Below, in pieces: positions 36,170-60,365 of a stretch of DNA of 64,000 nucleotides. Origin of the DNA: Gammaproteobacteria bacterium (GTDB taxonomy: Bacteria > Pseudomonadota > Gammaproteobacteria > HK1). The notes beneath the pieces were generated by a model, which saw only the letters and a program-made list of their open reading frames with translations, was not told the DNA's origin and made no database searches. The DNA lies in the NCBI GenBank assembly GCA_021773795.1, contig JAJFJT010000003.1:1-64000 (forward strand), read 5' to 3'. Position 1 is the stretch's first letter; each line of letters begins with the position of its first letter. Both the position numbers and the translations under genes were made by a program.

Positions 36170-37165
36170 ATGCCTGCCCGGAAAAGAACTTCTTTAGCGC
36201 TTTCCAATAAACAATTACTCCGTCTTTATGAAGATATGTCCATGTTGCGGGCCTTTGATGAAAAGGTCAGTGAACGCTGCATACGTGGGGAGATTCCAGG
36301 ACTCATCCATCTCGGTGTGGGTGAGGAGGCCGTGGCGGTGGGGGTGAATGCCGCTCTTCAGCCCCAGGACAAGATGGTGAGCACCCATCGGGCCCATAGC
36401 CATTTTCTCGCCCGCGGTGCCGATCCCAAGGCCTTCATGGCGGAACTCTACGGCAAGGCCACCGGTTGCTGTGGGGGCAAGGCGGGCTCCATGCATCTGG
36501 CCGACCCGGAGATTGGTTTTCTTGCGGCCAACGGCGTCGTGGGTGGCGGCTTGCCGCTGGCGGTGGGGGCGGCATTGGGCCAGCGGATATTAAAAGGTGA
36601 CTGGGTGACCCTGTGTTTCTTCGGTGATGGCGCCAATAACAACGGCGCCTTTCATGAATCCCTCAACTTGGCCGCGGTATGGGAACTGCCGGTGGTGTTC
36701 CTGTGCGAGAATAACGGCTACGGCATTTCCCAGAGCATCCACAAGCAGCAGCGGGTGGCGAATGTTGCTGACCGTGCGCCCGCTTATGGCATCCCGGCGG
36801 AGATCATCGACGGCAACGATGTGCTGGAAGTTTATGAAACGGTGCGGCGTGCAGTGGACAAGGCTCGTTCCGGTGGCGGCCCGATACTGATTGAGGCCAA
36901 GACCTACCGTACTACGGGCCACTATGTGGGTGATTCCGAGAGCTACCGTTCTAAAGGGGAGGTGGCCAAATGGCAGGCAAAGGATCCCATCGTTCGATTT
37001 GAAAAAGTTCTACGCCGCAAAAAGTTATTGAGCACGGCTCTGAAGGTCGAGATCGAGGCACGTATCACCGCTCTGGTGGAGGAGGCCACGGACTTTGCCA
37101 TGCAAAGCCCAGCCCCGGATCCCGCCGCCGCCCTTACCCATGTTTACTGTGAAGGAGGTGCGTGA
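36170..37165 (+). CDS. 2-oxoacid/acetoin dehydrogenase-type E1 alpha subunit (pair 1)
   Basis: This 331-aa TPP-binding alpha subunit has IHLGVGEEAVAVGVNAAL near residue 46 and STHRAHSHFLARG. The TPP motif is FFGDGANNNGAFHESLN...LCENNGYG (about 148-182), and TYRTTGHYVGDSESYR lies near 248 in the phosphorylation-loop region. It resembles AcoA of acetoin dehydrogenase and PdhA. It is the first gene of block A. The beta gene follows with a 1-nt overlap (TGATG), so the two form one E1. The substrate is not defined by sequence alone. Confidence 0.9.
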   Translation: MPARKRTSLALSNKQLLRLYEDMSMLRAFDEKVSERCIRGEIPGLIHLGVGEEAVAVGVNAALQPQDKMVSTHRAHSHFLARGADPKAFMAELYGKATGCCGGKAGSMHLADPEIGFLAANGVVGGGLPLAVGAALGQRILKGDWVTLCFFGDGANNNGAFHESLNLAAVWELPVVFLCENNGYGISQSIHKQQRVANVADRAPAYGIPAEIIDGNDVLEVYETVRRAVDKARSGGGPILIEAKTYRTTGHYVGDSESYRSKGEVAKWQAKDPIVRFEKVLRRKKLLSTALKVEIEARITALVEEATDFAMQSPAPDPAAALTHVYCEGGA

Positions 37166-38139
37166 TGGCCAGGATGAGCTACGCCGAGGCTTTGAATGAG
37201 GCGCATCGCATCGCCATGCGCGATGACCCACGGGTTTTCACCCTCGGTGAGGATATCGGCGAGTACGGTGGGATATACCGGGTGACCAAGGGTTTGCAGG
37301 CAGAATTCGGCGAGCAGCGGGTGCTGGATACGCCGATCTCCGAGATCGCCATTACCGGTGCTGCGGTGGGGGCGGCGCTGGTGGGCAGCCGTCCCATCCT
37401 CGAGATTGGCTTCGTGGATTTTGTCGGCACCTGCTGGGATCAGGTCTTCAATCAGGCGGCGAAGTTCCGCTATATGACCGATGGCCGTGCCTCGGTACCG
37501 CTGGTTATTCGCATGGCCTGTGGAGCCGGACTCGGTTACGGGGTCCACCATTCCCAGAGTCTGGAGGCGTGGTTCACCCATGTGCCGGGCTTGAAGGTAG
37601 TGATGCCGGCGACGCCGGCGGATGCCAAGGGGATGTTGCTGGCGGCCATCGACGATAAGGATCCAGTGGTCTTCCTGGAACACAAATTCCTATATGAAGT
37701 GAAGGATGAAGTACCGGACGGCCATTACACCGTCGCGCTTGGAAAGGCACGGGTGGCTCGGGAGGGTGCTGATGTCACCATCGTCAGCTGGTCCGGGGCG
37801 GTTCCCTGGGCGCTGAAGGCGGCAGAGCAGGCGGCCGCCGAAGGTATCGAATGCGAGGTGCTGGATCTGCGCAGCCTGGTGCCGCTGGATGAGGACGCCA
37901 TCGTGGCCTCGGTAGAAAAAACCGGTCGCCTTATCATCTGCCATGAGGCCTGTACTACCGGTGGCTTCGGCGCTGAGATTGTAGCCCGGGTGGTCGCCCG
38001 CGCCTTTGATTTCCTCGATGCCGAGCCGCGGCGCGTAGGCGCCCCGGATATTCCGGTGCCCAGCAGTCTGGCCCTGGAGGCGGTCTACCTCGGTACCCGG
38101 GAACGGCTACTGGAAGAGGTGCGCGCAATCGTTTCCTGA
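37165..38139 (+). CDS. 2-oxoacid/acetoin dehydrogenase-type E1 beta subunit (pair 1)
   Basis: This 324-aa E1 beta subunit shows MSYAEALNEAHRIAMRDDPRVF and LGEDIGEYGGIYRVTKGL near residue 28, with a catalytic glutamate in DTPISEIAITGAAVG. GVHHSQSLEAWFTHVPGLKVVMP has the conserved histidine, and VLDLRSLVPLDEDAI is near 232. ATG at 37165 has GGAGG 6 nt upstream and overlaps the alpha stop. It completes the first E1, whose catalytic residues look intact, unlike those of pair 2. Confidence 0.92.
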   Translation: MARMSYAEALNEAHRIAMRDDPRVFTLGEDIGEYGGIYRVTKGLQAEFGEQRVLDTPISEIAITGAAVGAALVGSRPILEIGFVDFVGTCWDQVFNQAAKFRYMTDGRASVPLVIRMACGAGLGYGVHHSQSLEAWFTHVPGLKVVMPATPADAKGMLLAAIDDKDPVVFLEHKFLYEVKDEVPDGHYTVALGKARVAREGADVTIVSWSGAVPWALKAAEQAAAEGIECEVLDLRSLVPLDEDAIVASVEKTGRLIICHEACTTGGFGAEIVARVVARAFDFLDAEPRRVGAPDIPVPSSLALEAVYLGTRERLLEEVRAIVS

Positions 38140-38205
38140 TGCGAGCGTCATGCTCGCCAACAACAAATTTCCAATCAATTTACGTACTAGCCAAGGGAAG
38201 CCAAT

Positions 38206-39165
38206 ATGAGCTTGAGCCCACAGGATTTAAAACAATTATTTCGTCGGCTGCTCCTCATCCGCCGTTTTGAGGAAGAGGCCTTTCGCTTGGCCGTGGCCGG
38301 GAAATTTGCCAATTACCACGGAGGCATGGGCCAGGAGGCGATACCGGTGGGGGCGTGTTATGGCCTGAAACCTACGGATAACACCATGATCACCCACCGT
38401 GGACTCGGGGTGCTGCTGACCCGTGGTGTTCCCGTGGGGGAAATCTTTGCCGGCCTTTATGCCAAGGAATCGTGCCCCACCCGGGGTCGTCATCCTATTT
38501 TCCACATGGCGGCACCGGAACTGGGCATTCTTGCCGGTACCACCATGGTGGGGTCGGTGATTCCGTTGGCAACCGGCGCCGCACTGGCCGCGCGCATCCA
38601 GGGTAAGTCCGACGTCACCATCTCCTTTTTTGGTGATGGCTCGGTGAACCGCGGGGATTTCCACGAAGGCATCAACCTGGGGGCAGTGCGCAAGCTCCCC
38701 ATCGTGTATTTCTGCGAGAACAATTTTTACGCCAAATCCATGCCGCTCGAGGCCTCCACGGCAGGTGGCAATATTGTCAGTCGTGCCCAGGGTTATGGTC
38801 TGCCCAGCGAGGTGGTAGACGGTAATGATGTGGTGGCGGTGTACGAGGCCACCCAACGCGCAGTAGCGCGTGCCCGCGCCGGCGATGGTCCGACCTTCAT
38901 CGAATGCCTGACCTATCGCTGGACCCCCCATTCCACCGCCGGTGATCGGGAATTTTCCCGCACCGATGAGGAGCTGGCGGGCTGGAAGGCGAAATGCCCG
39001 GTCATGCGCCTGCGCAAGCAGTTGATAGCAGCCGGCCATGCCAGTGCCCAAGAGCTGGATGCGGTGGATTTGGATATTCAGCGTGAGGTGGCCGAGGGAG
39101 TGGAATTTGCCGAGGCCGCTCCCTACGCGGCACCTGGAGTCGCCCTGGAAAACGTTTATCTATAG
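38206..39165 (+). CDS. 2-oxoacid dehydrogenase-type E1 alpha subunit (pair 2)
   Basis: This 319-aa second alpha subunit is clearly diverged from pair 1. Its TPP motif is FFGDGSVNRGDFHEGINLGA...FCENNFYA (about 143-180). YHGGMGQEAIPVGACYGL near 38 aligns with the E1 alpha active-site segment, and YRWTPHSTAGDREFS near 242 keeps the loop histidine as in branched-chain E1. The pair-1 HRAHSH segment is HRGLGV here. The beta partner follows 12 nt downstream. The substrate probably differs from that of pair 1 (inference). Confidence 0.88.
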   Translation: MSLSPQDLKQLFRRLLLIRRFEEEAFRLAVAGKFANYHGGMGQEAIPVGACYGLKPTDNTMITHRGLGVLLTRGVPVGEIFAGLYAKESCPTRGRHPIFHMAAPELGILAGTTMVGSVIPLATGAALAARIQGKSDVTISFFGDGSVNRGDFHEGINLGAVRKLPIVYFCENNFYAKSMPLEASTAGGNIVSRAQGYGLPSEVVDGNDVVAVYEATQRAVARARAGDGPTFIECLTYRWTPHSTAGDREFSRTDEELAGWKAKCPVMRLRKQLIAAGHASAQELDAVDLDIQREVAEGVEFAEAAPYAAPGVALENVYL

Positions 39166-39177
39166 AGGTTATTAACA

Positions 39178-40152
39178 ATGCATGAGATCAGCTATCAGCA
39201 GGCCATTATCGAGGCCATGGTGGAGGAGATGCGGCGCGACGAGGCGGTGGTGCTCATGGGTGAGGACGTGGGTACCTTTGGCGGCCTGACCGGTACCACG
39301 GTAGGGATCATCGAGGAATTTGGTGATACCCGTGTGCTGGAGATGCCTATCTCCGAGTGCGGTTTTGTCGGTGCCTCGGTAGGTGCGGCCCTGAAGGGTG
39401 TGCGACCCATCGTCGAACTGGGATTGGCGGATGTATCGCTGGTGGCCATGGACCAGTTGGTTAACAGCGCGGCGAAGATGAATTATTTCCACGATGGCGT
39501 GGCCTCTGCCTCTGCGGTGTACCGGCTTTGGTCAGGTTTTCGTCCCAGTGGCGGTGCACAGATGTCCCAGAGCAACGAGGCGATGTTTGCCCATGTGCCG
39601 GGCCTCAAGGTGGTGATGCCCAGCACACCCCGCGATGTGAAGGGGCTGTTGAAGGCCGCCATCCGCGACGATAACCCGGTAATCTTTTTTGAGCCCAAGG
39701 GCTGCTACGCGCTGCTTGGCGAGGTACCGGAAGATGACGAGGTGATTCCTCTGGGGCAGGCGCAGGTGAAGTGTAGCGGTGCCGACGTGAGCGTAATCGC
39801 CACTGGTGTCATGGTAGGCAAGGCGTTGACGGTAGCCAAAAAACTGGCTGCAGAAGGCATCGAGGTGGAGGTGGTGGACCCTCGTACCCTGCGTCCGCTC
39901 GATACCGAAACTTTGGTGGCTTCGGCATGTAAAACCGGACGGGTGGTGTTGGCACAGGAGGCGAGTCAGTTTTGTGGTTATTGCGCCGAAATAGCTGCAC
40001 TGCTGGCAGATCAGGCCTTCGATTCCCTCAAGGCACCAATCAAGCGGGTGGGTGGGGCCGAGACGCCAGTGCCTTTGAGCCCACGGATGGAGCCCTTGGT
40101 GGTGCCGGGCGAGGCGGCTATAGAAGCGGCCATCCATAGCGTTCTTGGCTAG
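39178..40152 (+). CDS. E1 beta subunit (pair 2) with altered active-site histidine
   Basis: This 324-aa protein has the E1 beta fold (LMGEDVGTFGGLTGTTVGI, MPISECGFVGASVGAAL, VVDPRTLRPLDTETLV). In the segment where other E1 beta proteins read QHSQ or HHSQ, this one reads GAQMSQSNEAMFAHVPGL, placing Met129 (codon 39562-39564) at the position of the catalytic histidine (His128 in human PDH E1 beta). Codon phase is unambiguous. The change suggests altered chemistry or acceptor for pair 2. Confidence 0.88.
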   Translation: MHEISYQQAIIEAMVEEMRRDEAVVLMGEDVGTFGGLTGTTVGIIEEFGDTRVLEMPISECGFVGASVGAALKGVRPIVELGLADVSLVAMDQLVNSAAKMNYFHDGVASASAVYRLWSGFRPSGGAQMSQSNEAMFAHVPGLKVVMPSTPRDVKGLLKAAIRDDNPVIFFEPKGCYALLGEVPEDDEVIPLGQAQVKCSGADVSVIATGVMVGKALTVAKKLAAEGIEVEVVDPRTLRPLDTETLVASACKTGRVVLAQEASQFCGYCAEIAALLADQAFDSLKAPIKRVGGAETPVPLSPRMEPLVVPGEAAIEAAIHSVLG

Positions 40153-40201
40153 CCCACCCTTAGTCAGGCCGTGTCGTTCCATTTAGTTAAGGAGTTTAAT
40201 C

Positions 40202-42172
40202 ATGTCGAAATCGCTACGTGAACTGGAACAAACCGTCCGGGAGTTCAAGGCGCTGACGCTGACTATGAGCGCCGCTGCCGGGGCGGGGCATGTGGGTGGG
40301 GCGCTCTCCGGGGCAGAGTCCCTGATCGCCGTCTGGTTCGATAAATTTAATATCGGTCTGGAGGATGGAAATCGGGACCGCTTTTTTCTTGGGCCCATGC
40401 ACTTTACCCCCGGTATCTACTCGCTACTGGTAAAAAAAGGTTTCCACCAATGGCGTGAGACCGTTGGCTATCGACGTTTTGGCAGCCCCTTCGAGGGTCA
40501 CCCTAACGCACTTGCAATCAAGGGTTGGGAGTTGACCGGCGGCTCTCTCGGACAGGCCCTCGGGGTTGCAGTGGGTTGCGCCATTGCGGCAAAAATCGAA
40601 GGAAAGAAGCACTGGGTAGTCACTCATAACAGTGATGGTGAACTGCAGGAAGGCAGTATGTGGGAGGCCATTTTGTACGCCGGCACCCACGGCCTGGATA
40701 ACCTCATCACCTACTTTGATGTTAACCGCATTCAAAGCTACAACCGTATTGAGGAGTGCAGTGAGATCGAACCCTTGGCGGACAAGCTGCGTGCCTTTGG
40801 CTGGAACGTTGTTGAGATCAATGGCAACGATCTGCAACAGGTGCTCGATGCCTACGACGAAGCGAAGGGGTACGGGAATAGCCAGCCCACTGCCATCATC
40901 GGTCATACGGTCATTGGCAAGGGGATTGGCTTTCTGGAAGATCGGGTGTCCTCACACAATAAGGCCCCGGCGCGGGAGACCTTGCCTGCGGCGCTGACGG
41001 AGCTTGGCACCGACTTTCCTCACGCGGAGTTCTTCAAGCTGGCCGACGAATATCAGGTGCGAATGACCAGGGAGCTGGATGCACGGATACCGATTTTTAG
41101 CCGGGATTACGGTTGGAATCAGGGCGAGCACATGCGTGTGGATGAGGAATGGAGCGGAATTGGAATTTCCGCTGCATTCCGTGCCTGCATGGATGCGAAC
41201 CCCAAGGTTATCGCGGTGACCCAGGACTCATACCAGCTCATCGGCCTGACCGGCGAGGATCGCGACAAGTATCGAAAGAGCCAGCAATTTCTCGATCTTG
41301 GTATCGCTGAACAGAATATGGCGGTGGTGGCCACAGGTCTCGCCAAGGAGGGTTTCATTCCGCTCACCAACGGTTATGCGGCCTTTGCCGTTGGACGCGC
41401 CTACGATCAGCTTCGCGTCAGCGTCGCCCATGCCCGCTACAACGTAAAGTATTTCCCCACTGAGGGGTTGCTCGGTGGCGATGGCCTGGTTCACGAGGCG
41501 CTGGAAAGCGTGGCGTTGGGCTATTACATGCCGCACATATCGGTGCAATGGCCCTGTGACAGCATTGAGGCTGGCAAGGCCACCCGGGTGGCCATTGAGG
41601 AGATCGAGGGCCCGATCATCACCCTGCAGGAACGTGCCCCAAAGCCGTTGATCACACGGGCGGACACTCCCTACCAATACGGCATTGCCAACATCATCCG
41701 TTATGTTGGAGAGGGCCCACGTTTTGAAGATGCCTTCGAAACCCGGCTCTCCACAGAGTGGGCGGGTGGCGATGCGGATATCGCCATCATTGCTATCGGC
41801 TCGGAGGTTGCTGAGGCGTTACGCGCCGCCTGGATTCTCAAGGCGGAGCGGAATGTGGATGCGGTGGTGGTCAATCTCCACACCCTGAAACCCCTGGACA
41901 GGGCGGGCATTCTCAAGGCCATCCAGGGCTGCAAAGGGGTGGTCACTGTGGCCCAGCAGCAAAAGGGCATTCTTGGCAATATTGTTTCCGGCGTCATTCT
42001 TGAAGCGGGGATGAACAATATGCACTCGCTGGGGCAGCTTAAAATGCTGGGTATTGATGATGCGTACGGGCGCACCGGGCGGCCGAACGAACTGGTCCAG
42101 CATTTTGGTCTCGGCGCTGAGCATATCGCTGTGGCGGCGATGGAAATACTGGAGTCCGGGAGCGTGAACTGA
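40202..42172 (+). CDS. Transketolase-like protein 1 (block A)
   Basis: This 656-aa full-length transketolase-fold TPP enzyme keeps the thiamine and ketol chemistry residues: GAGHVGGALSGAE near residue 25, GPMHFTPGIYSLL, GHPN, SDGELQEGS near 146, DLGIAEQNMAVVATGLAKEG (catalytic Glu) and GGDGLVHE (H431). F418-P-T-E421 replaces the THDS segment whose His binds the sugar phosphate in E. coli TktA. It is closely related to the 54.7-kb copy. AAGGAG lies before the ATG. It overlaps the next gene by 1 nt. The substrate is unknown. Confidence 0.88.
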   Translation: MSKSLRELEQTVREFKALTLTMSAAAGAGHVGGALSGAESLIAVWFDKFNIGLEDGNRDRFFLGPMHFTPGIYSLLVKKGFHQWRETVGYRRFGSPFEGHPNALAIKGWELTGGSLGQALGVAVGCAIAAKIEGKKHWVVTHNSDGELQEGSMWEAILYAGTHGLDNLITYFDVNRIQSYNRIEECSEIEPLADKLRAFGWNVVEINGNDLQQVLDAYDEAKGYGNSQPTAIIGHTVIGKGIGFLEDRVSSHNKAPARETLPAALTELGTDFPHAEFFKLADEYQVRMTRELDARIPIFSRDYGWNQGEHMRVDEEWSGIGISAAFRACMDANPKVIAVTQDSYQLIGLTGEDRDKYRKSQQFLDLGIAEQNMAVVATGLAKEGFIPLTNGYAAFAVGRAYDQLRVSVAHARYNVKYFPTEGLLGGDGLVHEALESVALGYYMPHISVQWPCDSIEAGKATRVAIEEIEGPIITLQERAPKPLITRADTPYQYGIANIIRYVGEGPRFEDAFETRLSTEWAGGDADIAIIAIGSEVAEALRAAWILKAERNVDAVVVNLHTLKPLDRAGILKAIQGCKGVVTVAQQQKGILGNIVSGVILEAGMNNMHSLGQLKMLGIDDAYGRTGRPNELVQHFGLGAEHIAVAAMEILESGSVN

Positions 42173-43155
42173 TGCTTGTCGGGGTTACCGACCACTATCG
42201 TCCCCCCTTTGATATAGAGGCGAAAGCCTTGGGCGATGAAGTTGAGTTTGTGGACTTCAATTCTCGCGATGAGAATGACTTTGACCCGGAGATCCTGCGT
42301 CGGCTGGATGCGCTGTTGGTCTTCCACGCCCGCATCACGGACCACACACTGGCCAGGCTGGAAAACTGCAAAATCATCGTCCGTTACGGCGTTGGCGTCG
42401 ACAATATGGACCTGGAGGCGCTGAAACAGGCGGGCATTCCACTCTGCAATACACCGGATTACGGAATCGAGGAAATCGCCGCCACTGCCGCTGCCCACTT
42501 GCTCAATCTATGGCGCCGTATCTCGGCCTATGATCGTGCCTGTCGCAACTACGAACAGGGCTGGGCGCAAAATATCCTGCGTCCCATCACGCGCATCTCC
42601 GAAAGCACCCTCGGTATTATCGGGGTGGGTCGCATGGGCGCCACCCTGGTCAAGTACATGAAGCCTTTCGGTTGCCGGATTATCGGCTATGACAAATACG
42701 CGCCGCCGGGACACGAGAAGGACGTGGGTTACGAGCGCGTTGATAGCCTTGAGGGACTCCTGAGCCAGGCAGATGCGGTTAGCCTGCATTGCGTGCTTAC
42801 CGACGAAACGCGGGGGCTGGTCGATGAGGAGTTTCTGGCCGCCATGAAGCCGGGAGCACTACTGGTGAATACTGCGCGCGGTGGTTTGTTCAAGGACCTG
42901 GATGTGCTTGAAACGGCGCTCAAAAGCGGCCAGCTAGGCGGGCTGGGCAGCGATGTTTTGCCTACGGAACCCCCGGTTGATCATGCGCTCATTCGTGCTT
43001 GGCGTGACTCTGAACCCTGGTTACGGGGGCGCATGGTGATTAGCCCCCATACCGCCTACTACTCGGAGTCGGCACTCTACGATATGCGTTTCAAGGCGGC
43101 GGAAAGTATTCGCCTTTATTTACAGCAGGGGATCCTGCGTAACCGGATTGTCTAG
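42172..43155 (+). CDS. D-2-hydroxyacid dehydrogenase 1 (block A)
   Basis: This 327-aa NAD(P)-dependent dehydrogenase of the phosphoglycerate/CtBP type has Rossmann motif IIGVGRMGATLVKYMKPFG near residue 143 and catalytic Arg in NTARGGLFKD. Glu lies in GSDVLPTEPPV and His in ISPHTAYYSES. The substrate loop VRYGVGVDNMDLEALKQAG is typical. ATG at 42172 overlaps the transketolase stop by 1 nt, so the two are tightly coupled. A TK/D-2-hydroxyacid dehydrogenase pair recurs in block B, which argues for a shared pathway. Confidence 0.88.
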   Translation: MLVGVTDHYRPPFDIEAKALGDEVEFVDFNSRDENDFDPEILRRLDALLVFHARITDHTLARLENCKIIVRYGVGVDNMDLEALKQAGIPLCNTPDYGIEEIAATAAAHLLNLWRRISAYDRACRNYEQGWAQNILRPITRISESTLGIIGVGRMGATLVKYMKPFGCRIIGYDKYAPPGHEKDVGYERVDSLEGLLSQADAVSLHCVLTDETRGLVDEEFLAAMKPGALLVNTARGGLFKDLDVLETALKSGQLGGLGSDVLPTEPPVDHALIRAWRDSEPWLRGRMVISPHTAYYSESALYDMRFKAAESIRLYLQQGILRNRIV

Positions 43156-43165
43156 GAGAATAAAC

Positions 43166-48284: not shown

Positions 48285-49196
48285 ATGAAAACAGTAAAAG
48301 CGAAACTAATCCTCGCTCTGGCAGTGCCGATGCTGATGTTTGGCAGCATGGCAGCCAAAGCGGATAAGCTGGAAGTTCTGCGTATCGGTCTGCTTCCGAC
48401 CGAGCAGGGTCTGGAGATGGTTAAGCAGTTCGATGATATTGCAAAGCATCTCGCTAAGGCACTTGGTGTGCCTTACAAAATCCAGGTCACCCAGAGCTAC
48501 AACGCGCTGATCGAAGCCATGGACGCAGGTCGTATTGACCTCTCCTACACCGGTGGTGGTGCCTACGTGTCCGCACGTGCCAAGGGCCTCAAGATTGTCC
48601 CGCTGGTGACCGCAGTGTTGCAGGGCCGGACCTACTACAAGTCTTGCCTGATCACACAGCCGAACAGCCCCATCAAGACCATCCAGGACATGAAGGGCCA
48701 CACCTTTGCCTTCGTATCCACTCACTCCACCTCCGGTGGCGTGGGTCCGCGCTACTTCCTCGGCAAGAATGGCATCTCTCCTGAAAAGGATTTCAAGAAG
48801 TTCCTGTATGCAGGTACGCATGACGCCGTGATGCTGGCCGTTATCAACAACAAGGTTGAGTCTGGTGCCGTTGGTGACATCTTCTTCCAGCGTTGGAAGG
48901 ATCGTGGCATGGTGAAGTTCGACCGCTATGACGAGCCCAACAACACCCTGGTGAACGGTCAGTTCCGTATCATTGACTGCATCAAGGTGCCTGGCACCCC
49001 GATGATCGCCCGTGAGGCGCTGGGCAAAGACGTCCTGAAGAAGCTACAGGATGCCTTCGTCAACATGCCGAAGAGTGCGGTAGAGAAGCTGAAATATTAC
49101 GGTGCTACTCAGGGCTTTAACCGTGCTTCGCACGCGGACTATGTGGATCTGGCCGCGATGAAGAAGATGGCCAAAGCCATGAAGAAAAAGAAGTAA
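48285..49196 (+). CDS. phnD: PhnD-like ABC transporter substrate-binding protein
   Basis: This 303-aa periplasmic binding protein has a signal peptide (LILALAVPMLMFGSMAAKA). The phosphonate-binding family pattern is RIGLLPTEQGLEMVKQFDDIAKHLAKALG, then QSYNALIEAMDAGRIDLSYTGGGAYVSARAKG and VSTHSTSGGVGPRYFL. Members bind phosphonates, phosphite, hypophosphite or related anions, so the ligand is open. It has a strong GAGGAG ribosome-binding site and its own terminator, consistent with excess binding protein over permease. Confidence 0.9.
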   Translation: MKTVKAKLILALAVPMLMFGSMAAKADKLEVLRIGLLPTEQGLEMVKQFDDIAKHLAKALGVPYKIQVTQSYNALIEAMDAGRIDLSYTGGGAYVSARAKGLKIVPLVTAVLQGRTYYKSCLITQPNSPIKTIQDMKGHTFAFVSTHSTSGGVGPRYFLGKNGISPEKDFKKFLYAGTHDAVMLAVINNKVESGAVGDIFFQRWKDRGMVKFDRYDEPNNTLVNGQFRIIDCIKVPGTPMIAREALGKDVLKKLQDAFVNMPKSAVEKLKYYGATQGFNRASHADYVDLAAMKKMAKAMKKKK

Positions 49197-49288: not shown

Positions 49289-49444
49289 AGCGGGTCTTGT
49301 TTGTCATCTGGCTGATCGTAGGGCCAGCCAACTATTTAGTCGGGTGTGGGATATTTGTGTCCGGCACCTTTTTCTGTCCGATGAGAGAGCTTCATGGCCC
49401 GCCGGGTCGGGAGTTCTACCTTTGAAGTAGCTGGGGGATGTGCA

Positions 49445-50245
49445 GTGTCCGAGCAAAACGCGGGTTCGCGTAAGCCTAAAATCATAGTCGACCACCTGAC
49501 CAAGTCTTATGACGGTCATATCATTGCTGTGGACGACATCAATTTGAGTATAGACAAGGGGGAATACTGCATTCTCTTTGGCCCCAGTGGTGTCGGTAAG
49601 TCGACCCTGATGCGCCATATCAATTACCTTATCAAGCCCACCAAGGGTGACATCGTCATCGATGGCAAGCGCCTCGGTGAGATGAAAACGAAGGAACTGC
49701 TGAAGCAGCGTTCCAGAATCGGCATGATTTTCCAGGAATTCAACCTGGTGAACCGCATGTCGGTGATCATGAATGTCATGTGCGGCCGCCTGCACTATCT
49801 CAATGCCTGGCGCTCCCTGACCTTCAGTTTTACCCGTGATGACCACGAACGCGCCATTGATTGTCTGCGGCGTGCCGGTCTGCATGAGGAAGAACTCTAC
49901 TTCCGTCGTGCCGATACTCTTTCTGGTGGTCAGAAACAGCGTGTGGCCATTGCCCGCATGCTGATTCAGGAGCCGGAAATCATTCTCGCCGATGAGCCCA
50001 TCGCGGCTTTGGACGTCAAGAATCAGCACATGATTCTCGAACTGATTGGTGATATTGCCCGCCGCGACAACATCACCATCGTCATGACCCTCCATCATCT
50101 GGAGCTCGCCAAGAAGTACGCCAGTCGCATCATCGGTCTGTCCGAGGGCAAGGTTGCCTTTGACGGCCCGGGAGAGAGCCTGGACGAAGCCGCCATCAAC
50201 CGTGTATTCAAAATGGAAGATGGCAAAGTCGTAGGTACGACCTAA
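49445..50245 (+). CDS. phnC: PhnC-like ABC transporter ATP-binding protein
   Basis: This 266-aa ATPase has Walker A GPSGVGKSTLMRHINYL, a Q-loop in IGMIFQEFNLVNRMSVIMNV, signature LSGGQKQRVAIARMLIQEP, Walker B IILADEPIAALD, and an H-loop in VMTLHHLELAKKYASR. IFQEFNLVNRMSV and the overall pattern are PhnC-like. GTG at 49445 follows GGGGGA; ATG at 49394 is an alternative. It overlaps the first permease gene by 1 nt. Confidence 0.92.
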   Translation: MSEQNAGSRKPKIIVDHLTKSYDGHIIAVDDINLSIDKGEYCILFGPSGVGKSTLMRHINYLIKPTKGDIVIDGKRLGEMKTKELLKQRSRIGMIFQEFNLVNRMSVIMNVMCGRLHYLNAWRSLTFSFTRDDHERAIDCLRRAGLHEEELYFRRADTLSGGQKQRVAIARMLIQEPEIILADEPIAALDVKNQHMILELIGDIARRDNITIVMTLHHLELAKKYASRIIGLSEGKVAFDGPGESLDEAAINRVFKMEDGKVVGTT

Positions 50246-51069
50246 TGGCTAAAATATTCGACATTAGCAAGATCGATCTTGAGGGTATAGAGCTCGCGAT
50301 CTATGTACGCCGTAGGGTACGTACGGGTTACGCTATTCTGGTTGCTATCGTCTTGGCGATCGTCTTCTACGCCGCCTATTACACCAACTTCAATCTGGCG
50401 GAACTGGAGCGTGGTTCTCCCCATATATGGAAGCTGCTTGGCCGCATGTTCCCGCCGGATCTTGAGCCTTTGAGTGAAATCTCCGGACCATTGGTTGAGA
50501 CCTTGCAGATGGCCTTGGTGGGAACCACCCTGCCAATTCCGATTGCGATGTTTCTGGCCTTCTATGCGGCCACCAGCACGCGCCGGATCCACTGGTTGGG
50601 TAACCTGGTTCGTGTCGCGTTGAATACCCTGCGTACGATTCCCGAACTGTTGTGGGCGATGATTCTGGTGTCTGCGGTGGGTTTGGGTACCTTTCCGGGT
50701 ACGCTGGCGCTGACCCTGCATAGTACGGGTAGCATGGGTAAGTTCTTCTACGAGACCATTGAGGCCGTGGATGAGGGAATTCTTGAGGCGATGAAGTCCA
50801 CCGGGGCCAATCGCTTGCAGATTTTCTTCTTTGGAATTCTTCCCACCATCTTGCCTAATATCATGTCTGTGGTGTTGTTGTATTGGGATTACAACAATCG
50901 CTCGGCAACGGTACTGGGGCTCGTGGGCGCCGGTGGTATCGGTTTTATCCTCACCTCCGCTATCGCCGAATTTGAATACCAGCAGGCTATTACTGTTCTG
51001 GGCGTGATTGTCATCATCCTGACCGTCATTGACCGGACCAGCGCGGCCGCTCGCAGCAGGATTATCTAG
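50245..51069 (+). CDS. phnE: PhnE-like permease 1
   Basis: This 274-aa inner-membrane permease has a first helix near residue 30 (GYAILVAIVLAIVFYAAYY) and several more after residue 80. The coupling-loop motif EAMKSTGANRLQIFFFGILPTILPNIMS sits near 184, and ATVLGLVGAGGIGFIL near 225 is a PhnE family hallmark. Its ATG overlaps the phnC stop. A second, similar permease follows immediately, so a heterodimeric channel is likely. Confidence 0.92.
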   Translation: MAKIFDISKIDLEGIELAIYVRRRVRTGYAILVAIVLAIVFYAAYYTNFNLAELERGSPHIWKLLGRMFPPDLEPLSEISGPLVETLQMALVGTTLPIPIAMFLAFYAATSTRRIHWLGNLVRVALNTLRTIPELLWAMILVSAVGLGTFPGTLALTLHSTGSMGKFFYETIEAVDEGILEAMKSTGANRLQIFFFGILPTILPNIMSVVLLYWDYNNRSATVLGLVGAGGIGFILTSAIAEFEYQQAITVLGVIVIILTVIDRTSAAARSRII

Positions 51070-51070
51070 C

Positions 51071-51874
51071 ATGGCAAATGAAACCACAGCGAATGCGGTG
51101 CCTATGCCGCACTTTCCCCCGCGCTACACGCCGTTCCGTCTGATTGTTGCGGCGGTTATAGCCGGGATCTACTGGTGGTCTGTTGTCGGGGCGGAATTCA
51201 GCCCCGTCGAGTTGGCCAAGGGGCTCCCGAAGGTATGGGAAACCCTGGTGCTGATGTTCCCACCGAGCCTGGAAGGCTATAAAAGTCTTTGGGTGCCTTT
51301 CTGGGAGACGCTTTACATCGGGATTCTAGCGACCTTCTTTGGTTCCATCATTTCGATACCGGTGGGCTTCCTGGCCTCTCAGAATATGGTGCCTTGGTGG
51401 ATCTATCACCCCGTTCGGATGGTGCTTAATATCTTCCGTGGTGTATCGGAGATTATCTGGGCACTATTCTTCGTAGTGGCGGTAGGTCTTGGTCCCATGC
51501 CTGGCGTGATTGCACTGACTATCTTCTCGGTGGGTATGCTTTCCAAGCTGCTATCCGAGGCGGTAGAGGCCTCTGATATTGGTATGCTTGAAGCGATGAC
51601 CGCTACTGGCGCCAGTCGCTGGAAAGTGTTCTTTTATGGTGCCATGCCGGAGGTGTTTCCCCTGTATATCAGTTACACCCTGTATTACTGGGATCACAAT
51701 ACGCGGCAGGCGACGGTGCTTGGGTTTGTGGGCGCCGGTGGTCTGGGTGTGACCTTGCTCTGGAACATGAGTATGTATGAGTTTGAGCAGGCAACCACCG
51801 TGGTGATTATCATCGTTTGCATGATCACCGTGATTGACCGCCTCTGTCTCAAGATGCGTGAGGCGATTCAGTAA
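51071..51874 (+). CDS. phnE: PhnE-like permease 2
   Basis: This 267-aa paralogue of the preceding permease has TLYIGILATFFGSIISIPVGFLAS, EAMTATGASRWKVFFYGAMPEVFPLYISYTLY and ATVLGFVGAGGLGVTLL. ATG at 51071 is 1 nt after the previous stop; longer frames would overlap it. With the ATPase and binding protein it completes an importer. Two-permease sets are known in phosphonate-type transporters. A strong terminator ends the unit. Confidence 0.92.
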   Translation: MANETTANAVPMPHFPPRYTPFRLIVAAVIAGIYWWSVVGAEFSPVELAKGLPKVWETLVLMFPPSLEGYKSLWVPFWETLYIGILATFFGSIISIPVGFLASQNMVPWWIYHPVRMVLNIFRGVSEIIWALFFVVAVGLGPMPGVIALTIFSVGMLSKLLSEAVEASDIGMLEAMTATGASRWKVFFYGAMPEVFPLYISYTLYYWDHNTRQATVLGFVGAGGLGVTLLWNMSMYEFEQATTVVIIIVCMITVIDRLCLKMREAIQ

Positions 51875-52016: not shown

Positions 52017-53210
52017 ATGTCCCAGGATACCTCTATTGCACGCTCGAACAGGGTGTTGTTCTCGGCCTCAAGTTGCCACATGGCGCATGACGGCTATAGC
52101 AACTTGTTGTATACGTTAGTGCCCCTCTGGGCCCTGGCCTATGGGTTTAGCGCTACCCAGGTTGGTATTCTGGTGGGGTGTTATGTCGGCGCCATGGCCC
52201 TGTTTCAAATTCCCGCAGGTTTTCTCTCGGAGCGCGTGGGGGAGCGGGTTCTACTGATCGCCGGCATTATGCTGGTGGCTATTGCCTTTACCGCTATTGG
52301 TTTGGTGGAGGCCTACGAAGGTTTTGTGGTGTTGCTGATACTTGCGGGTCTCGGTTCTGGCGTACAGCATCCGCTTTCCTCCAGTATCATCTCTTCGGCA
52401 TTTACCCCTGAGCGGCGGCGTGTGGCACTCGGTGTTTACAACTTTGCCGGCGACGTGGGCAAGGCCTCATACCCGGTATTGGCGGCGGGTTTGATGCTGG
52501 TACTGAGTTGGCGTAGCACCACTTTATTGTTTGGATGCGTCACGGTATTGCTGGGAATGGGGCTTTTCCTGATGCTCCGTCACCTTAAGGTGGGCGAGCA
52601 TCCCGCTCGCTTAAAGCGTCTGGATAGCTCGGAAAAAGCGACTGGTTGGGGGATTTTGCGCCCCCACTCTTTTACCTTGCTGAGCCTGATCGGAATGCTC
52701 GATTCTGCCGCACGCATGGGCTTTCTGACCTTTATCCCCTTTTTATTGGTGGCTAAGGGGATGGGCGTGGAGCAAACCGGTTTTGCCTTTGGCCTGGTGT
52801 TTGTGGGCGGTGCCTTTGGCAAATTCGTATGTGGGATATTGGCGGCTCGTTTGGGGACTATCCGCACCGTATTAATCACTGAGATAGCGACGGGGGCAGG
52901 GATATTACTGGCACTGGTATTACCACTGGAGCCGTTATTCTGGACTTTACCTATCATTGGCGTGGCCATGAATGGAACCTCAACAGTGCTCTATGGCAGC
53001 GTCGCAGATTTCGTTTCCGAGGAACGTCAGGCGCGAGGTTACGGGCTCTTTTACACTCTGCTTTTTGGCGCTTCGGCGCTGGCGCCGGTAACGTTAGGCT
53101 TGCTCAATGACGGCTTTGGTCTCGAATTTAGCATCGCTGCTATCGGGGTGCTGGCGCTATTAACGCTGCCATTGCTCATACCCATGGCGCGCGAGTTGAA
53201 AGCTCCGTAA
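52017..53210 (+). CDS. MFS transporter (fosmidomycin-resistance-like)
   Basis: This 397-aa major facilitator protein has about 12 membrane segments. HMAHDGYSNLLYTLVPLWAL near residue 23 and GFSATQVGILVGCYVGAMALFQIPAGFLSERVGERVLL resemble Fsr-type efflux proteins, whose known substrate is a phosphonate antibiotic. It sits between the phosphonate-type importer and the second dehydrogenase. It could export a product or toxic analogue (inference). Substrate cannot be read from sequence. Confidence 0.83.
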   Translation: MSQDTSIARSNRVLFSASSCHMAHDGYSNLLYTLVPLWALAYGFSATQVGILVGCYVGAMALFQIPAGFLSERVGERVLLIAGIMLVAIAFTAIGLVEAYEGFVVLLILAGLGSGVQHPLSSSIISSAFTPERRRVALGVYNFAGDVGKASYPVLAAGLMLVLSWRSTTLLFGCVTVLLGMGLFLMLRHLKVGEHPARLKRLDSSEKATGWGILRPHSFTLLSLIGMLDSAARMGFLTFIPFLLVAKGMGVEQTGFAFGLVFVGGAFGKFVCGILAARLGTIRTVLITEIATGAGILLALVLPLEPLFWTLPIIGVAMNGTSTVLYGSVADFVSEERQARGYGLFYTLLFGASALAPVTLGLLNDGFGLEFSIAAIGVLALLTLPLLIPMARELKAP

Positions 53211-53593: not shown

Positions 53594-54541
53594 ATGACAA
53601 TGAAGGTATGCTTGGTCACCAATGCGAAGGAAGATACCGCTGCTTACACCGACGGGATTTTTCCGGCCGATTCGGAAGTGCTTTTGCTGACCGCTGAAGA
53701 AATGGAAGCGCGGATTGAAGAGATTAACTTCCTCGTCCCCGGTCATATTGATGTCAATGCTGAGTTTCTTAACCGCGCCAAAAACCTGCGTCTCGTGCAT
53801 TGTGGCACTGGCTACAACAACGTGGACCTGGAAGCCGCCAACAAGAACAACTGCTATGTTTGTGTGACCCCGAACGTGGCTGCTACTTCTGTTGCTGAGC
53901 TGGTCTGGAGCTCCTTGAGCTCTCTCAAAAACCACATCGCCGAATTCGACGCCATCCTTAAGGACGGCGGCTGGAAGTCGACCGATTTCATCGGTATTCC
54001 GGAATTCAAGGGCAAGACCTTTGGTGTCGTTGGTTACGGTAACATCGGTCGCGAAGCGGCTCGTATTGCCCGTGGCTATGGCATGACCGTTATCGCCCAC
54101 GATCCCTACTGCAAAGAGACCAATGACGGCACCGCGCTGGTGAGCTTGGATGAGCTGATCAAAAGAGCCGACTTCATCACCCTGCATGTGCTGTTGACTC
54201 CGGAGACCACCGGTCTCTTTGGCGCCGAGCAGTTTGAAGCCATGAAAGACACCGCCATGCTGGTTAATGCATGTCGCGGTCCGGTGGTTGATGAGGCCGC
54301 TCTGGTCGAGGCCCTCAAGGCCAAGAAGATTGCTGGTGCCTGCCTCGACGTGTTCGAGAAAGAGCCACTGGATCCGAAGAGCCCGCTGCGTGATCTGAAC
54401 AACATTGTTCTGACTCCGCACATCGCCTTCTGCTCCAACGAGGCCCTCAAGGGTCGTTACCAGTTCTTCGCCGATAACGCTGCCAAGCTGGTTGCCGGCG
54501 AAGTGCCTAACATGGCCGTGAATGCGGACCAGGTTAGCTAG
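53594..54541 (+). CDS. D-2-hydroxyacid dehydrogenase 2 (block B)
   Basis: This 315-aa NAD(P)-dependent dehydrogenase has VHCGTGYNNVDLEAANKNN near residue 75, Rossmann motif GVVGYGNIGREAARIARGYG near 143, and catalytic Arg in NACRGPVVDE. Glu lies in LDVFEKEPL and His in LTPHIAFCSNEA. It is of the phosphoglycerate/glycerate dehydrogenase type; PtxD, the phosphite dehydrogenase, is a more distant relative. Codons are rich in GGT, CGT and AAC as in highly expressed genes. It has its own terminator and precedes transketolase 2. Confidence 0.87.
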   Translation: MTMKVCLVTNAKEDTAAYTDGIFPADSEVLLLTAEEMEARIEEINFLVPGHIDVNAEFLNRAKNLRLVHCGTGYNNVDLEAANKNNCYVCVTPNVAATSVAELVWSSLSSLKNHIAEFDAILKDGGWKSTDFIGIPEFKGKTFGVVGYGNIGREAARIARGYGMTVIAHDPYCKETNDGTALVSLDELIKRADFITLHVLLTPETTGLFGAEQFEAMKDTAMLVNACRGPVVDEAALVEALKAKKIAGACLDVFEKEPLDPKSPLRDLNNIVLTPHIAFCSNEALKGRYQFFADNAAKLVAGEVPNMAVNADQVS

Positions 54542-54598: not shown

Positions 54599-54741
54599 CG
54601 GCTTTTGAGCTGGATTTTTGGGAGGTCTTCCGTACTCCCTCTGTTTGACCCCTCTAAGTGTCGGCACCTTCTCTCTGGGTTGCTGCTCGTCATTTCGGGG
54701 CACACTTAAATACACAAGCTAACGTAATAGCAGGAGTTAAC

Positions 54742-56688
54742 ATGGGCAAATCTGTTGAAGAACTGCAAGAAATAGTCAAGAGCTTTAAAGCCCTTGGCAT
54801 GACCATGAGTTCCGCCGTGGGTGGTGGTCACGTGGGTGGTGCCATGTCTGGTGCCGAGTGGATGATTGCTGGCTGGTTTGACAAGCTGAATATCGACCCG
54901 GAGTCTGATGCGCGCGACCGCTATTTCGTCGGCCAGGGCCACATCACCCCCGGTATCTATTCACTGCTGGTCCATAAGGGCTACTACAAGTGGCAGGATA
55001 CCGTTGGCTACCGTCGTTATGGCAGCCCCTTCCAGGGTCACCCGGACCGCACCAAGCTCTATGGCTGGGAAATGTCCTCCGGTTCTCTGGGTCAAGCCCT
55101 TGGCGTTGCCGTTGGCTCCGCTTTGGCCGCCAAGCTGCAGGGCAAGGATCATTGGATCGTTACCCAGAACAGCGACGGTGAGCTGCAGGAAGGCAGCATG
55201 TGGGAAGCCATTATGTTTGCCGGCGCCCATGGTCTTGATAACCTGGTCACCTTCATTGATTTCAACCGCATCCAGAACTACAGCCGCATCGAAGACTGTA
55301 ATGAGTTGGAGCCCCTGGCTGATAAGTTCCGTGCCTTCAACTGGGAAGTTATTGAGCTTTCCGATGGCAATGACATGCAGGCAGTTTGCAATGCCTATGA
55401 CAAGGCTATGGTTCCGGGCAAGGGTAAGCCGACTGTAGTTATCGGCACGACCAAGATTGGCAAGGGCGTTTCCTTCATGCACGACGTGGTTGCCTATCAC
55501 TCCAAGGCTCCGGGTCGCGATCAGTTGGCTGGTGCCTTCGAAGAGCTTGGTGTTGAGTTCCCACACGAGGAGTTCTGCAAACTGGCCGACGAGTATCAGG
55601 AGAAGGTTACCGGCGAGCTCAACGATGCAGATCCGAAGTTCGGCAAGGCCTATGGCTGGAATGCCGGCGACGATATGAAGGTGGAGCAGGTGTGGACCGG
55701 TATCGGTATCACTGAGGGTTTCCGTGAATGTCTGGACGCTGACAAGAATGTCATCGTCTGTACCGATGACTCCCATAAGCTCATCGGCATGAATGATGAT
55801 GACAAAGCCAAGTACAAGGGCAGCAACCAGTTCGTAGACGTCGGTTGTGCCGAGCAGAATATGGCTATGATCTCCGCCGGTCTGGCGAAAGAGGGCTTCA
55901 TTCCTCTGTCCCAGGGCTACACCGGTTTCGCCGTGGGTCGTGGTTATGACCACATCCGCACCAGCATCGCCTTCTCTGACTTCAATGCGAAGTACTTTCC
56001 CACCGAGGCACTGCTAGGCGGCGACGGCGGCATGCACGAGTGCATGGAAGGCATCACCTTGGGCTACTACATGCCCAACATGCGGATCCAGTGGCCGTGT
56101 GACAACAACGAAGCCAAGCGTGCCACCAAGGCTGCTATCTCCGAGGTGAAGGGTCCGATCATCACCCTGCAGGAACGTGCTCCGAAGCCGGTAGTGACCA
56201 AGGCCGATACTCCCTATCAGTATGGAGTGGCTAACGTCATTAACTTCACCGGTCGCCAGGCTAACTTCGTAGATGCCTTCGATACCGCGCTGTCCACCGA
56301 CTGGGCTCCGCGCAGTGCCGATCTGGCCATTGTTGCCTGTGGTTCCATGGTGGCTGAAGCGATGCGTGCATCCGTTATCCTCAAGGAGGAAAAGGGACTG
56401 GACGTGACCGTGGTCAACATGCATACCGTCAAGCCGTTGGATAGCGCTGGTCTGGTTAAGGCCGTGGACGGCGTCAAGGGCGTGATCGCTATCTCTCAGG
56501 ATCACAATGAAGCCCTGGGTAATATCGTCGCAGGTGCCATCCTTGAGGCTGGTCCTGGTCCGAAAATGAAGCGCATGGGTGTGCGTGATCAGTTCGGCCA
56601 GACTGCCAAGCCTTATGAGCTGGTACAGCACTACGGCATTACCGCTGAGCACATTGCTGAAAGCGCCATCGAACTTCTCGGTGCCTAA
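54742..56688 (+). CDS. Transketolase-like protein 2 (block B)
   Basis: This 648-aa close paralogue of the 40.2-kb protein shows GGGHVGGAMSGAE, GQGHITPGIYSLL, SDGELQEGSMWEAIM, DVGCAEQNMAMISAGLAKEG, and F419-P-T-E422 then GGDGGMHE (H432). Thiamine-site residues are kept, while the His that grips the donor phosphate in TktA is not. ATG at 54742 follows AGGAG; a longer frame from 54658 lacks a site. Codon use suggests very high expression. It is flanked by terminators, so it forms its own unit. The substrate is unknown. Confidence 0.88.
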   Translation: MGKSVEELQEIVKSFKALGMTMSSAVGGGHVGGAMSGAEWMIAGWFDKLNIDPESDARDRYFVGQGHITPGIYSLLVHKGYYKWQDTVGYRRYGSPFQGHPDRTKLYGWEMSSGSLGQALGVAVGSALAAKLQGKDHWIVTQNSDGELQEGSMWEAIMFAGAHGLDNLVTFIDFNRIQNYSRIEDCNELEPLADKFRAFNWEVIELSDGNDMQAVCNAYDKAMVPGKGKPTVVIGTTKIGKGVSFMHDVVAYHSKAPGRDQLAGAFEELGVEFPHEEFCKLADEYQEKVTGELNDADPKFGKAYGWNAGDDMKVEQVWTGIGITEGFRECLDADKNVIVCTDDSHKLIGMNDDDKAKYKGSNQFVDVGCAEQNMAMISAGLAKEGFIPLSQGYTGFAVGRGYDHIRTSIAFSDFNAKYFPTEALLGGDGGMHECMEGITLGYYMPNMRIQWPCDNNEAKRATKAAISEVKGPIITLQERAPKPVVTKADTPYQYGVANVINFTGRQANFVDAFDTALSTDWAPRSADLAIVACGSMVAEAMRASVILKEEKGLDVTVVNMHTVKPLDSAGLVKAVDGVKGVIAISQDHNEALGNIVAGAILEAGPGPKMKRMGVRDQFGQTAKPYELVQHYGITAEHIAESAIELLGA

Positions 56689-56753: not shown

Positions 56754-57656
56754 ATGGCTAGCAAAAGCCTAGTAGATATGGTGGTCTTTGACCTCGGCGG
56801 TACCGTCTGTGACGGTATCGATGAGGAAACAGGTCTTGCCAACATTGGCCCGATCAACGCACTGCGCTTCAGCTTGAAGCGGGTGTGGGACATCGATCCT
56901 CCCTTCGACGTGATCTTGCCGCATATGGCAACGCGCAAGCTCGACCACTTGTTCAAGATCCTTACTACGCCTTCGATCGCGGCGGAGTTCAAGGAAAAGC
57001 ATGGCCGTGAGCCGGTCTTTGCCGATGCCGAGTTCTGCTTCAACAGTGCCTTCAAGGAGATCCTTGAGATCGACGAAATGCCGAAGCGCTCCGAGCCTTT
57101 CGAGGGTGTGATCGACATGTTCAAGGACCTTAAGTCCAAGGGCATCAAGATTGGTATCGACACCGGTTTCTATGCCAAGGCAGTGCGTATCATCCTTGGC
57201 AAGTTTGGCCACAACCACCTGATCGATGCCGACATCGGTGCCGATGAGGTTTCCCAGGCGCGTCCCTGGCCGTTCATGATGTTCAAGCTTATGGATGACC
57301 TGGAAATCATCGACGTACGCCGTACCATGAAGGTGGGTGATGTGTATCCCACTGACTTCCTGGAAGGTTATAACACCGGTGGCATTTCCGTGGGCCTGAC
57401 CGAGTGCGGTAACTCCCGTCCGGCGAGCACCTGGAAATCCTTCGAGACTTCCGATGGTCGTGAGGTTCGGGCAGTGGAGTGGTTTGCCACCAGCCTGGAA
57501 GAGAAGGATCAGATGTTCCGTGGTTGGTTGCGTGATGCCGCGGACAACGGTACCCGAGTGCCTTATCCCATGGTGCTCATCCCTCATTCTAACCAGCTGA
57601 CCCAGCTGATTAATGAGATGGAGCAGATCGCTCCGGTGTTCACCTCCTTGCTATAA
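56754..57656 (+). CDS. Phosphonatase-like HAD-superfamily hydrolase
   Basis: This 300-aa protein begins its HAD core with VVFDLGGTVCD. Asp13 would be the nucleophile, and the +2 Asp of ordinary HAD phosphatases is absent, as in phosphonoacetaldehyde hydrolase (DWAGT). Lys62 in TRKLDHLFKI aligns by eye with the Schiff-base lysine of PhnX (LLKIDH), then KIGIDTGFY, ARPWPFMMFKLM and MKVGDVYPTDFLEGYNTGG match PhnX order. It is longer than PhnX (about 265 aa). A role in releasing Pi from a phosphonate aldehyde is inference. Confidence 0.8.
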   Translation: MASKSLVDMVVFDLGGTVCDGIDEETGLANIGPINALRFSLKRVWDIDPPFDVILPHMATRKLDHLFKILTTPSIAAEFKEKHGREPVFADAEFCFNSAFKEILEIDEMPKRSEPFEGVIDMFKDLKSKGIKIGIDTGFYAKAVRIILGKFGHNHLIDADIGADEVSQARPWPFMMFKLMDDLEIIDVRRTMKVGDVYPTDFLEGYNTGGISVGLTECGNSRPASTWKSFETSDGREVRAVEWFATSLEEKDQMFRGWLRDAADNGTRVPYPMVLIPHSNQLTQLINEMEQIAPVFTSLL

Positions 57657-58024
57657 GCGAAGAGGCCGGGGGCCTGACGTCATAAACATGGGCTCCAAGC
57701 CCCGGTCGTGCAACCGCGACCGGGGCTTTTTTTGCCTGGGAATTGTTAAAATAAAGTGCCCGTTAGAGGCTTCTAAGCACCTGATGCCCTTGATAAAATC
57801 AGCAAGTTAGTTCATAATCCCCTGCTAACTAAAGACATCCCAATACCCAAAGCCTCTGATGCTTTGCGAGGGCGGTTTCACCCAATGCCCTCCGATCCCG
57901 CCGCGCGCCACCGGGCGCCGACAGCAGCAATAAACCTTTTATATTTTTTCTATTGCGCGCCTAGCGTGCCTGCCCGCAGCTTCAATGGTTGGCCCCGGCG
58001 TACAGATATACAGGAGTAGAATTC
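57657..58024 (+). other. Intergenic region between HAD hydrolase and DUF47 genes
   Basis: This 368-bp gap contains a strong terminator near its start (57697-57733) and no convincing coding frame. AT-rich sequence near 57935-57955 (TTTTATATTTTTTCTATTG) could hold a promoter for the phosphate-transport pair. ACAGGAG just before ATG 58025 is the ribosome-binding site. Confidence 0.6.
57697..57733 (+). terminator. Intrinsic terminator after HAD hydrolase
   Basis: AAGCCCCGGTCG (57697-57708) pairs with CGACCGGGGCTT (57717-57728), followed by a T run. Confidence 0.93.
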
Positions 58025-60278: not shown

Positions 60279-60365
60279 GCCTGCATATCTTTGCTATCCA
60301 ATGTTTGACTTCATCCGACGGCTTGAGAACAATGGCATGAGTTTTTATTCATGCGAGAGCCTTTA

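Follow-up and report, generated by a model that had tools for sequence, protein, structure and literature searches.

We analysed a 64,000-nucleotide stretch of a gammaproteobacterial genome (contig JAJFJT010000003.1, positions 1 to 64,000, forward strand; hereafter the window), which encodes two paralogous transketolase-like proteins, TK1 and TK2. TK1 lies between two E1-alpha/E1-beta pairs and a 2-hydroxyacid dehydrogenase gene, while TK2 is found in a gene run reading PhnD-PhnC-PhnE-PhnE, MFS, DH1, TK2, HAD, PhoU_div, Pit, LysR and EamA, which thus includes a transporter for phosphonates, in which carbon is bonded directly to phosphorus. The features are as follows.

36170..40152, + strand: two E1-alpha/E1-beta pairs next to TK1
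40202..42172, + strand: TK1, paralogue of TK2 with the same site losses, in the E1/E2 cluster beside DH2
42172..43155, + strand: DH2, second 2-hydroxyacid dehydrogenase and partner of TK1; the pair also occurs in Rhodospirillaceae G1061
48285..49196, + strand: PhnD-like phosphonate/phosphite ABC substrate-binding protein
49394..50245, + strand: PhnC ATPase (TIGR02315 above cut-off)
50245..51069, + strand: PhnE permease (TIGR01097 above cut-off)
51029..51874, + strand: second PhnE-like permease, paralogue of the first PhnE (39%)
52017..53210, + strand: MFS transporter, weakly like organophosphate/organic-acid carriers
53594..54541, + strand: DH1, 2-hydroxyacid dehydrogenase of the PGDH/glyoxylate-reductase type, conserved partner of TK2
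54742..56688, + strand: TK2, transketolase-like ThDP enzyme, 648 aa, lacking the R358 and H461 of TktA and keeping R520
56754..57656, + strand: HAD hydrolase, divergent relative of phosphonatase (PhnX), with D13, M58, K62, H65 and D196 kept, a DxG motif and a C-terminal extension
57989..58687, + strand: PhoU_div protein, kept together with TK2 in Burkholderiales
58700..60178, + strand: PHO4 phosphate transporter of the Pit type, likewise kept with TK2 in Burkholderiales
60351..61304, + strand: LysR regulator, 60-62% identical to the LysR of the Burkholderiales and Rhodospirillaceae islands
61385..62227, + strand: EamA transporter, 57% identical to the EamA of the Rhodospirillaceae island

Both transketolase-like open reading frames are real and full length. 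TK1 has 656 aa and is 59% identical to TK2, whose start was placed at the ATG at 54742 that is common to its relatives (the mechanical ORF start is a GTG at 54658). The Transketolase_N, _pyr and _C domains all scored above the Pfam gathering scores in the two proteins. However, TK1 and TK2 fell far below all the transketolase equivalog cut-offs (170-184 of 682 bits for TIGR00232, 363-366 of 488 for NF004559 and 261-287 of 575 for NF004556), missed that of the DXS equivalog TIGR00204 (103 of 466 bits), and in the profile search were not matched by a dedicated family model for SqwGH or dihydroxyacetone synthase. The host genome, of 2.56 Mb and 99% completeness, whose relatives in the same genus are Gammaproteobacteria MAGs, also encodes an ordinary transketolase on another contig (C25), with R358, S385 and H461 intact, and a DXS inside the window.

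Arg357/358 and His461 are listed, on crystallographic grounds, as substrate-binding residues of transketolase (PMC4601599). An earlier note, made from the DNA letters, had reported that both paralogues carry the thiamine-site motifs SDGELQEG, AEQN and GGDG..H, read FPTE where TktA has THDS with His461, do not conserve the Arg358 region, and might match Arg520 by the Arg in LQERAPKP. We aligned 68 sequences, comprising TK1 and TK2, E. coli TktA (MG1655), the transketolase and DXS of the same genome, and relatives from genome contigs, and each of these observations held. The motifs are present in both proteins, which also retain the TktA residues H26, H66, H100, H261, E411, D469, H473 and R520, the last aligning to the Arg of LQERAPKP, whereas R358 is replaced by Gly. 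H461 is missing, and the FPTE loop is two residues shorter than that of TktA. The Ser385 column is also non-Ser in TK1 and TK2, in a part of the alignment that is uncertain.

The weight that the earlier note had placed on His461 as the key diagnostic did not survive the comparison. Among the 62 aligned sequences outside the clade, TktA and the ordinary transketolase of the same genome included, the H461 column holds Ser in 37 and His in only 20, so most of the other nearest relatives also lack this residue and its loss was rejected as the sole diagnostic. The R358 column, on the other hand, is Arg or Lys in all 61 scored sequences once DXS and the clade are set aside. Judged by the alignment, the marker of the clade is therefore the change of R358 to Gly together with the shortened loop, rather than the loss of H461 by itself. 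The changes are the same in all six clade members of the alignment, which represent two lineages, and recur in a partial Rhodospirillaceae copy, which argues that they are not due to chance. Ser in the H461 column comes mostly from split transketolase-like pairs of Sphingomonadales. These pairs (L031-L084; also from Caulobacteraceae and Chloroflexi) have Ser or Ala in this column, Leu in place of D469, and both R358 and R520, and constitute a separate unusual group.

A Lys at position 482 is specific to the clade and lies three residues from the kept Arg equivalent to R520, where it could hold another anion. The earlier suggestion of a donor that lacks the usual sugar-phosphate tail or carries a different anionic group is thus borne out in part: Arg358 and His461 are gone, Lys482 has been gained as a clade-specific residue, and the operon points to phosphonates, while the substrate itself is a prediction.

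In the phylogeny, which the earlier note had proposed as a check, TK1 and TK2 formed a separate clade on a long branch (support 100/100), together with one protein from a Burkholderiales MAG (67% to TK2) and one from a Rhodospirillaceae MAG (73% to TK1). The sister group (support 87/94) consists of single-chain homologues from Zixibacteria/FCB MAGs, and because these keep R358 and H461, the losses are most simply placed on the branch leading to the TK1/TK2 clade. The clade is rare, being found in its own genus, one Burkholderiales MAG and one Rhodospirillaceae MAG, with 1573 other genomes sampled and 84,980 scanned for two exact peptide patterns, a design by which rarer relatives may be missed. 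No close relatives of TK2, HAD or DH1 were found on plasmids, and a viral scan with HAD as the query gave no match. The proposed check by structural modelling was informative at the level of the fold only: the AlphaFold model of TK2 (pLDDT 73.7, pTM 0.71, active-site loops below 50) shows a DXS-like arrangement of domains within the chain, with a TM score of 0.71 to DXS 6ouv versus 0.44 to transketolase chains, and it was not relied on. The model of HAD, built from 3 sequences, reached a pLDDT of 54.7.

TK1 has the same site losses outside the phosphonate operon, so these losses cannot have been driven by phosphonates alone. Its surroundings (36170-45320) hold two tandem E1-alpha/E1-beta pairs, DH2, a 3-hydroxyacyl-CoA-dehydrogenase-like gene, a lipoyl E2 and a DeoR regulator. 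The order DeoR-E1-E1-dehydrogenases is kept in the Burkholderiales MAG (G094, L099), where TK1 is absent from the cluster and no E2 was found, and a same-genus genome (G001, L128) has the E1-E1-DH2-dehydrogenase cluster without TK1. The TK1-DH2 adjacency recurs in the Rhodospirillaceae MAG (G1061), in which the transketolase is apparently split across the ends of two contigs (L014 and L127). Transketolases of this clade repeatedly adjoin a 2-hydroxyacid dehydrogenase; for DH1, the co-occurrence is partly a search effect, as the islands come from very few genomes and most were found via TK2.

These features could be read to mean that TK1 and TK2 work as ordinary ketol transferases, with hydroxypyruvate or non-phosphorylated compounds as substrates, and that the phosphonate neighbours of TK2 are incidental. 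The ketol-donor residues H26, H66, H100, H261, D469 and H473 of TktA are all present, both proteins are paired with dehydrogenases of the hydroxypyruvate-reductase type, and TK1 lies away from phosphonate genes. We nevertheless regard this explanation as unlikely, given that the order DH1-TK2-HAD-PhoU-Pit is common to the gammaproteobacterial genus and the Burkholderiales MAG, at 50-67% identity (64, 67, 66, 50 and 57%, respectively).

By gene content, the run around TK2 has the make-up of a phosphonate catabolic operon, i.e., a C-P hydrolase, a phosphonate transporter and a regulator. Substrate-induced C-P hydrolase clusters typically contain LysR genes (PMC10574752), and a LysR gene is present here; a Pho-box scan of the window gave 6 matches against 4.4 expected by chance, none of them meaningful. 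This context, along with the recurring dehydrogenase partner and the phosphonatase-like HAD, had not been part of the earlier note and is added here.

The HAD protein matches PhnX at the Asp nucleophile (D13), at Met49 (M58), at the Schiff-base Lys53 (K62) and at His56 (H65). It reads DxG in place of DxD, so that a Gly stands where phosphatases have their general-acid Asp; with the phosphonatase Lys also kept, an ordinary phosphatase is unlikely. The TIGR01422 score (116.5 of 220 bits) is below the PhnX equivalog cut-off, and the C-terminal extension is conserved in Burkholderiales (66% identity). Since a canonical PhnX is encoded elsewhere in the same genome (L109:7616-8461, contig C26; 311 bits for TIGR01422), next to an aldehyde dehydrogenase, the HAD of the operon probably has another substrate or role.

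DH1 is closest to PGDH and also near glyoxylate reductases. Its identity as the phosphite dehydrogenase PtxD was considered less likely, as the match to PtxD (6ih2, E 7.8e-32) is weaker than that to PGDH (1wwk, E 1.5e-49) and the operon contains a C-P hydrolase.

The Burkholderiales MAG carries a second DH1 just downstream of its TK2 island, followed by a PhnY-like aldehyde dehydrogenase (ALDH), a PhnA-like hydrolase and a CobW GTPase, and thus has both modules in one MAG. Its two DH1 copies (L013:8941-9954, before TK2-HAD, and L013:15783-16795, before the PhnY/PhnA-like genes) are 99.4% identical over 1014 bases, which may stem from recent duplication or be an effect of the assembly. In the Rhodospirillaceae MAG, DH1, the PhnY-like and PhnA-like genes and CobW are followed by orthologues of the LysR (62%) and EamA (57%) of the window; this DH1-ALDH-PhnA operon is itself without a transketolase, and one sits on another contig. 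The best PDB match of the PhnY-like protein is 4i3t, deposited as an aldehyde dehydrogenase, which we take to be the PhnY structure, and its best NCBIfam is phosphonoacetaldehyde dehydrogenase (511 bits). The best solved relatives of the PhnA-like protein are phosphonoacetate hydrolases (PhnA 1ei6, E 7e-42). Like HAD, both proteins are below the equivalog cut-offs.

TK2 with HAD and the PhnY-like with the PhnA-like enzyme look like alternative ways to process the product of DH1, each ending in a C-P hydrolase, and this swapping of modules behind DH1 is the strongest evidence for a part of TK2 in phosphonate breakdown.

PhnA-like genes were also seen in other settings. An alphaproteobacterial genome (G1370) has one (72-73%) and no transketolase of this clade; there, the gene (L132, contig C64) neighbours genes for an ABC transporter that has an extracellular binding protein and for a LysR akin to that found upstream of the Burkholderiales DH1-TK2. 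In a haloarchaeon, a plasmid of Halomarina sp. BND7 (NZ_CP100455.1, 586854-587930; L133) has such a gene among MmgE/PrpD, MaoC, TcuA and PEP-mutase-family genes, in what looks like another island for degradation of a phosphonate or phosphono-tricarboxylate.

We propose that TK2 probably performs a C-C step dependent on thiamine in a phosphonate-catabolic operon, between DH1 and HAD, because the phosphonate ABC transporter and Pit/PhoU are in the same gene run, because DH1-TK2-HAD-PhoU-Pit is conserved in the Burkholderiales MAG, and because R358 and H461 are lost from an otherwise intact ThDP and ketol site. The catabolic direction and the position of TK2 in the chain are read from the gene content. 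Weighing against the proposal are the shared site losses of TK1, the DH1-ALDH-PhnA operon of the Rhodospirillaceae MAG with no transketolase in it, the PhnA-like gene of G1370, and the scores below cut-off of the HAD, PhnY-like and PhnA-like proteins. In the scheme, PhnD-C-E-E would import the phosphonate, DH1 would oxidise an alpha-hydroxy acid, and TK2 would decarboxylate the resulting 2-oxo acid on ThDP. Transketolases decarboxylate 2-oxo acids, e.g., hydroxypyruvate. TK2 would then either release phosphonoacetaldehyde or hand the unit to a small aldehyde, giving a beta-keto phosphonate; as His100, which marks hydroxymethyl-ketone donors, is kept, glycolaldehyde is also a possible donor. 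Lys62 of HAD would form a Schiff base with the beta-carbonyl phosphonate, and hydrolysis of the C-P bond would yield Pi, to be handled by PhoU/Pit.

The identity of the substrate is more speculative. 3-Phosphonolactate is nearly isosteric with 3-phosphoglycerate, from which it differs in lacking the bridging oxygen, and because DH1 is nearest to PGDH, our best guess for its reaction, a tentative one that may well be wrong in its exact chemistry, is the oxidation of 3-phosphonolactate to phosphonopyruvate. This would be the reverse of a biosynthetic reaction, as 2-hydroxyacid dehydrogenases are known to convert phosphonopyruvate to phosphonolactate in biosynthesis (PMC12871164).

Two other routes would use the same genes differently. 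If the substrate were 2-hydroxyethylphosphonate, DH1 would form phosphonoacetaldehyde, its cleavage by HAD would give acetaldehyde and Pi, and TK2 would add a hydroxyacetyl unit to the acetaldehyde. Such a route would account for DH1 being followed by either a PhnX-like HAD or a PhnY-like ALDH with a PhnA-like hydrolase, since these match the two ways in which phosphonoacetaldehyde is classically consumed (PMC10574752), and for the loss of the phosphate site in TK2. However, 2-hydroxyacid dehydrogenases prefer alpha-hydroxy acids, and a canonical PhnX is already encoded elsewhere in the genome. PbfF, a pfam02826 protein of the DH1 family that works in phosphonate catabolism, did not oxidise 2-hydroxyethylphosphonate when assayed (PMC12366243), which weakens this route without removing it; overall, we find it quite improbable.

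Hydroxymethylphosphonate, an alpha-hydroxy acid analogue of glycolate, would fit the proximity of DH1 to glyoxylate reductases and use the three genes in their order: DH1 would give formylphosphonate, TK2 would add C2 to form HOCH2-CO-CH(OH)-PO3, and HAD would release dihydroxyacetone and Pi, which would explain a C2 transfer before the Schiff-base hydrolase acts. Judged from mechanism, though, the hydrolysis step of the PhnY/PhnA-like module would on this route fall on phosphonoformate, a compound without the stabilised leaving group seen in the known PhnA reaction, and no Dak1-type dihydroxyacetone kinase was found in the five genomes searched, making this route very unlikely. Phosphonolactate is our leading candidate for the substrate.

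To our knowledge, no transketolase-like enzyme is known in phosphonate degradation. We found no relevant paper pairing transketolase with phosphonate terms, and the words "thiamine" and "transketolase" are absent from a 2023 review of microbial phosphonate degradation (PMC10574752). We lean, by a little, towards the broader view that a transketolase-family ThDP enzyme performs a dedicated C-C step in phosphonate catabolism and feeds a new phosphonatase subfamily, in a type of pathway outside the described hydrolytic, oxidative and C-P-lyase routes. If so, this would be a new enzyme class in environmental phosphorus cycling, would imply a phosphonate with a breakdown not yet described, and would provide a naturally occurring transketolase released from sugar-phosphate dependence, something that biocatalysis seeks.

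Compared with known enzymes, TK1 and TK2 share the three-domain architecture, the ThDP and ketol-donor residues and Arg520 with transketolase (E. coli TktA and human TKT, EC 2.2.1.1), but are only 25-28% identical to these proteins and differ by the change of R358 to Gly, the loss of H461 with a two-residue loop deletion, and Glu in place of Cys157. The Zixibacteria/FCB single-chain homologues, the nearest outgroup (37-39% identical), have R358 and H461 and are without phosphonate neighbours. DXS, of the same ThDP superfamily, resembles TK2 in lacking R358 and H461, but in DXS the H461 position is occupied by Arg and His100 is missing, whereas TK2 keeps His100 and scores far below the DXS cut-off. 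DH1 belongs to the protein family of the racemase PbfF (pfam02826), which is also found in phosphonate gene clusters, a likeness of family only; PbfF occurs with PbfA, which was not seen at the TK2 locus. Finally, the TK2 operon resembles the PhnWX, PhnWYA and PalBA systems in its phosphonate importer, its LysR and its C-P hydrolase of the PhnX fold, with PhnY- and PhnA-like enzymes in the related islands. Unlike them, rather than an aminotransferase it contains a 2-hydroxyacid dehydrogenase along with a transketolase-like enzyme, and all the hydrolytic enzymes are divergent.
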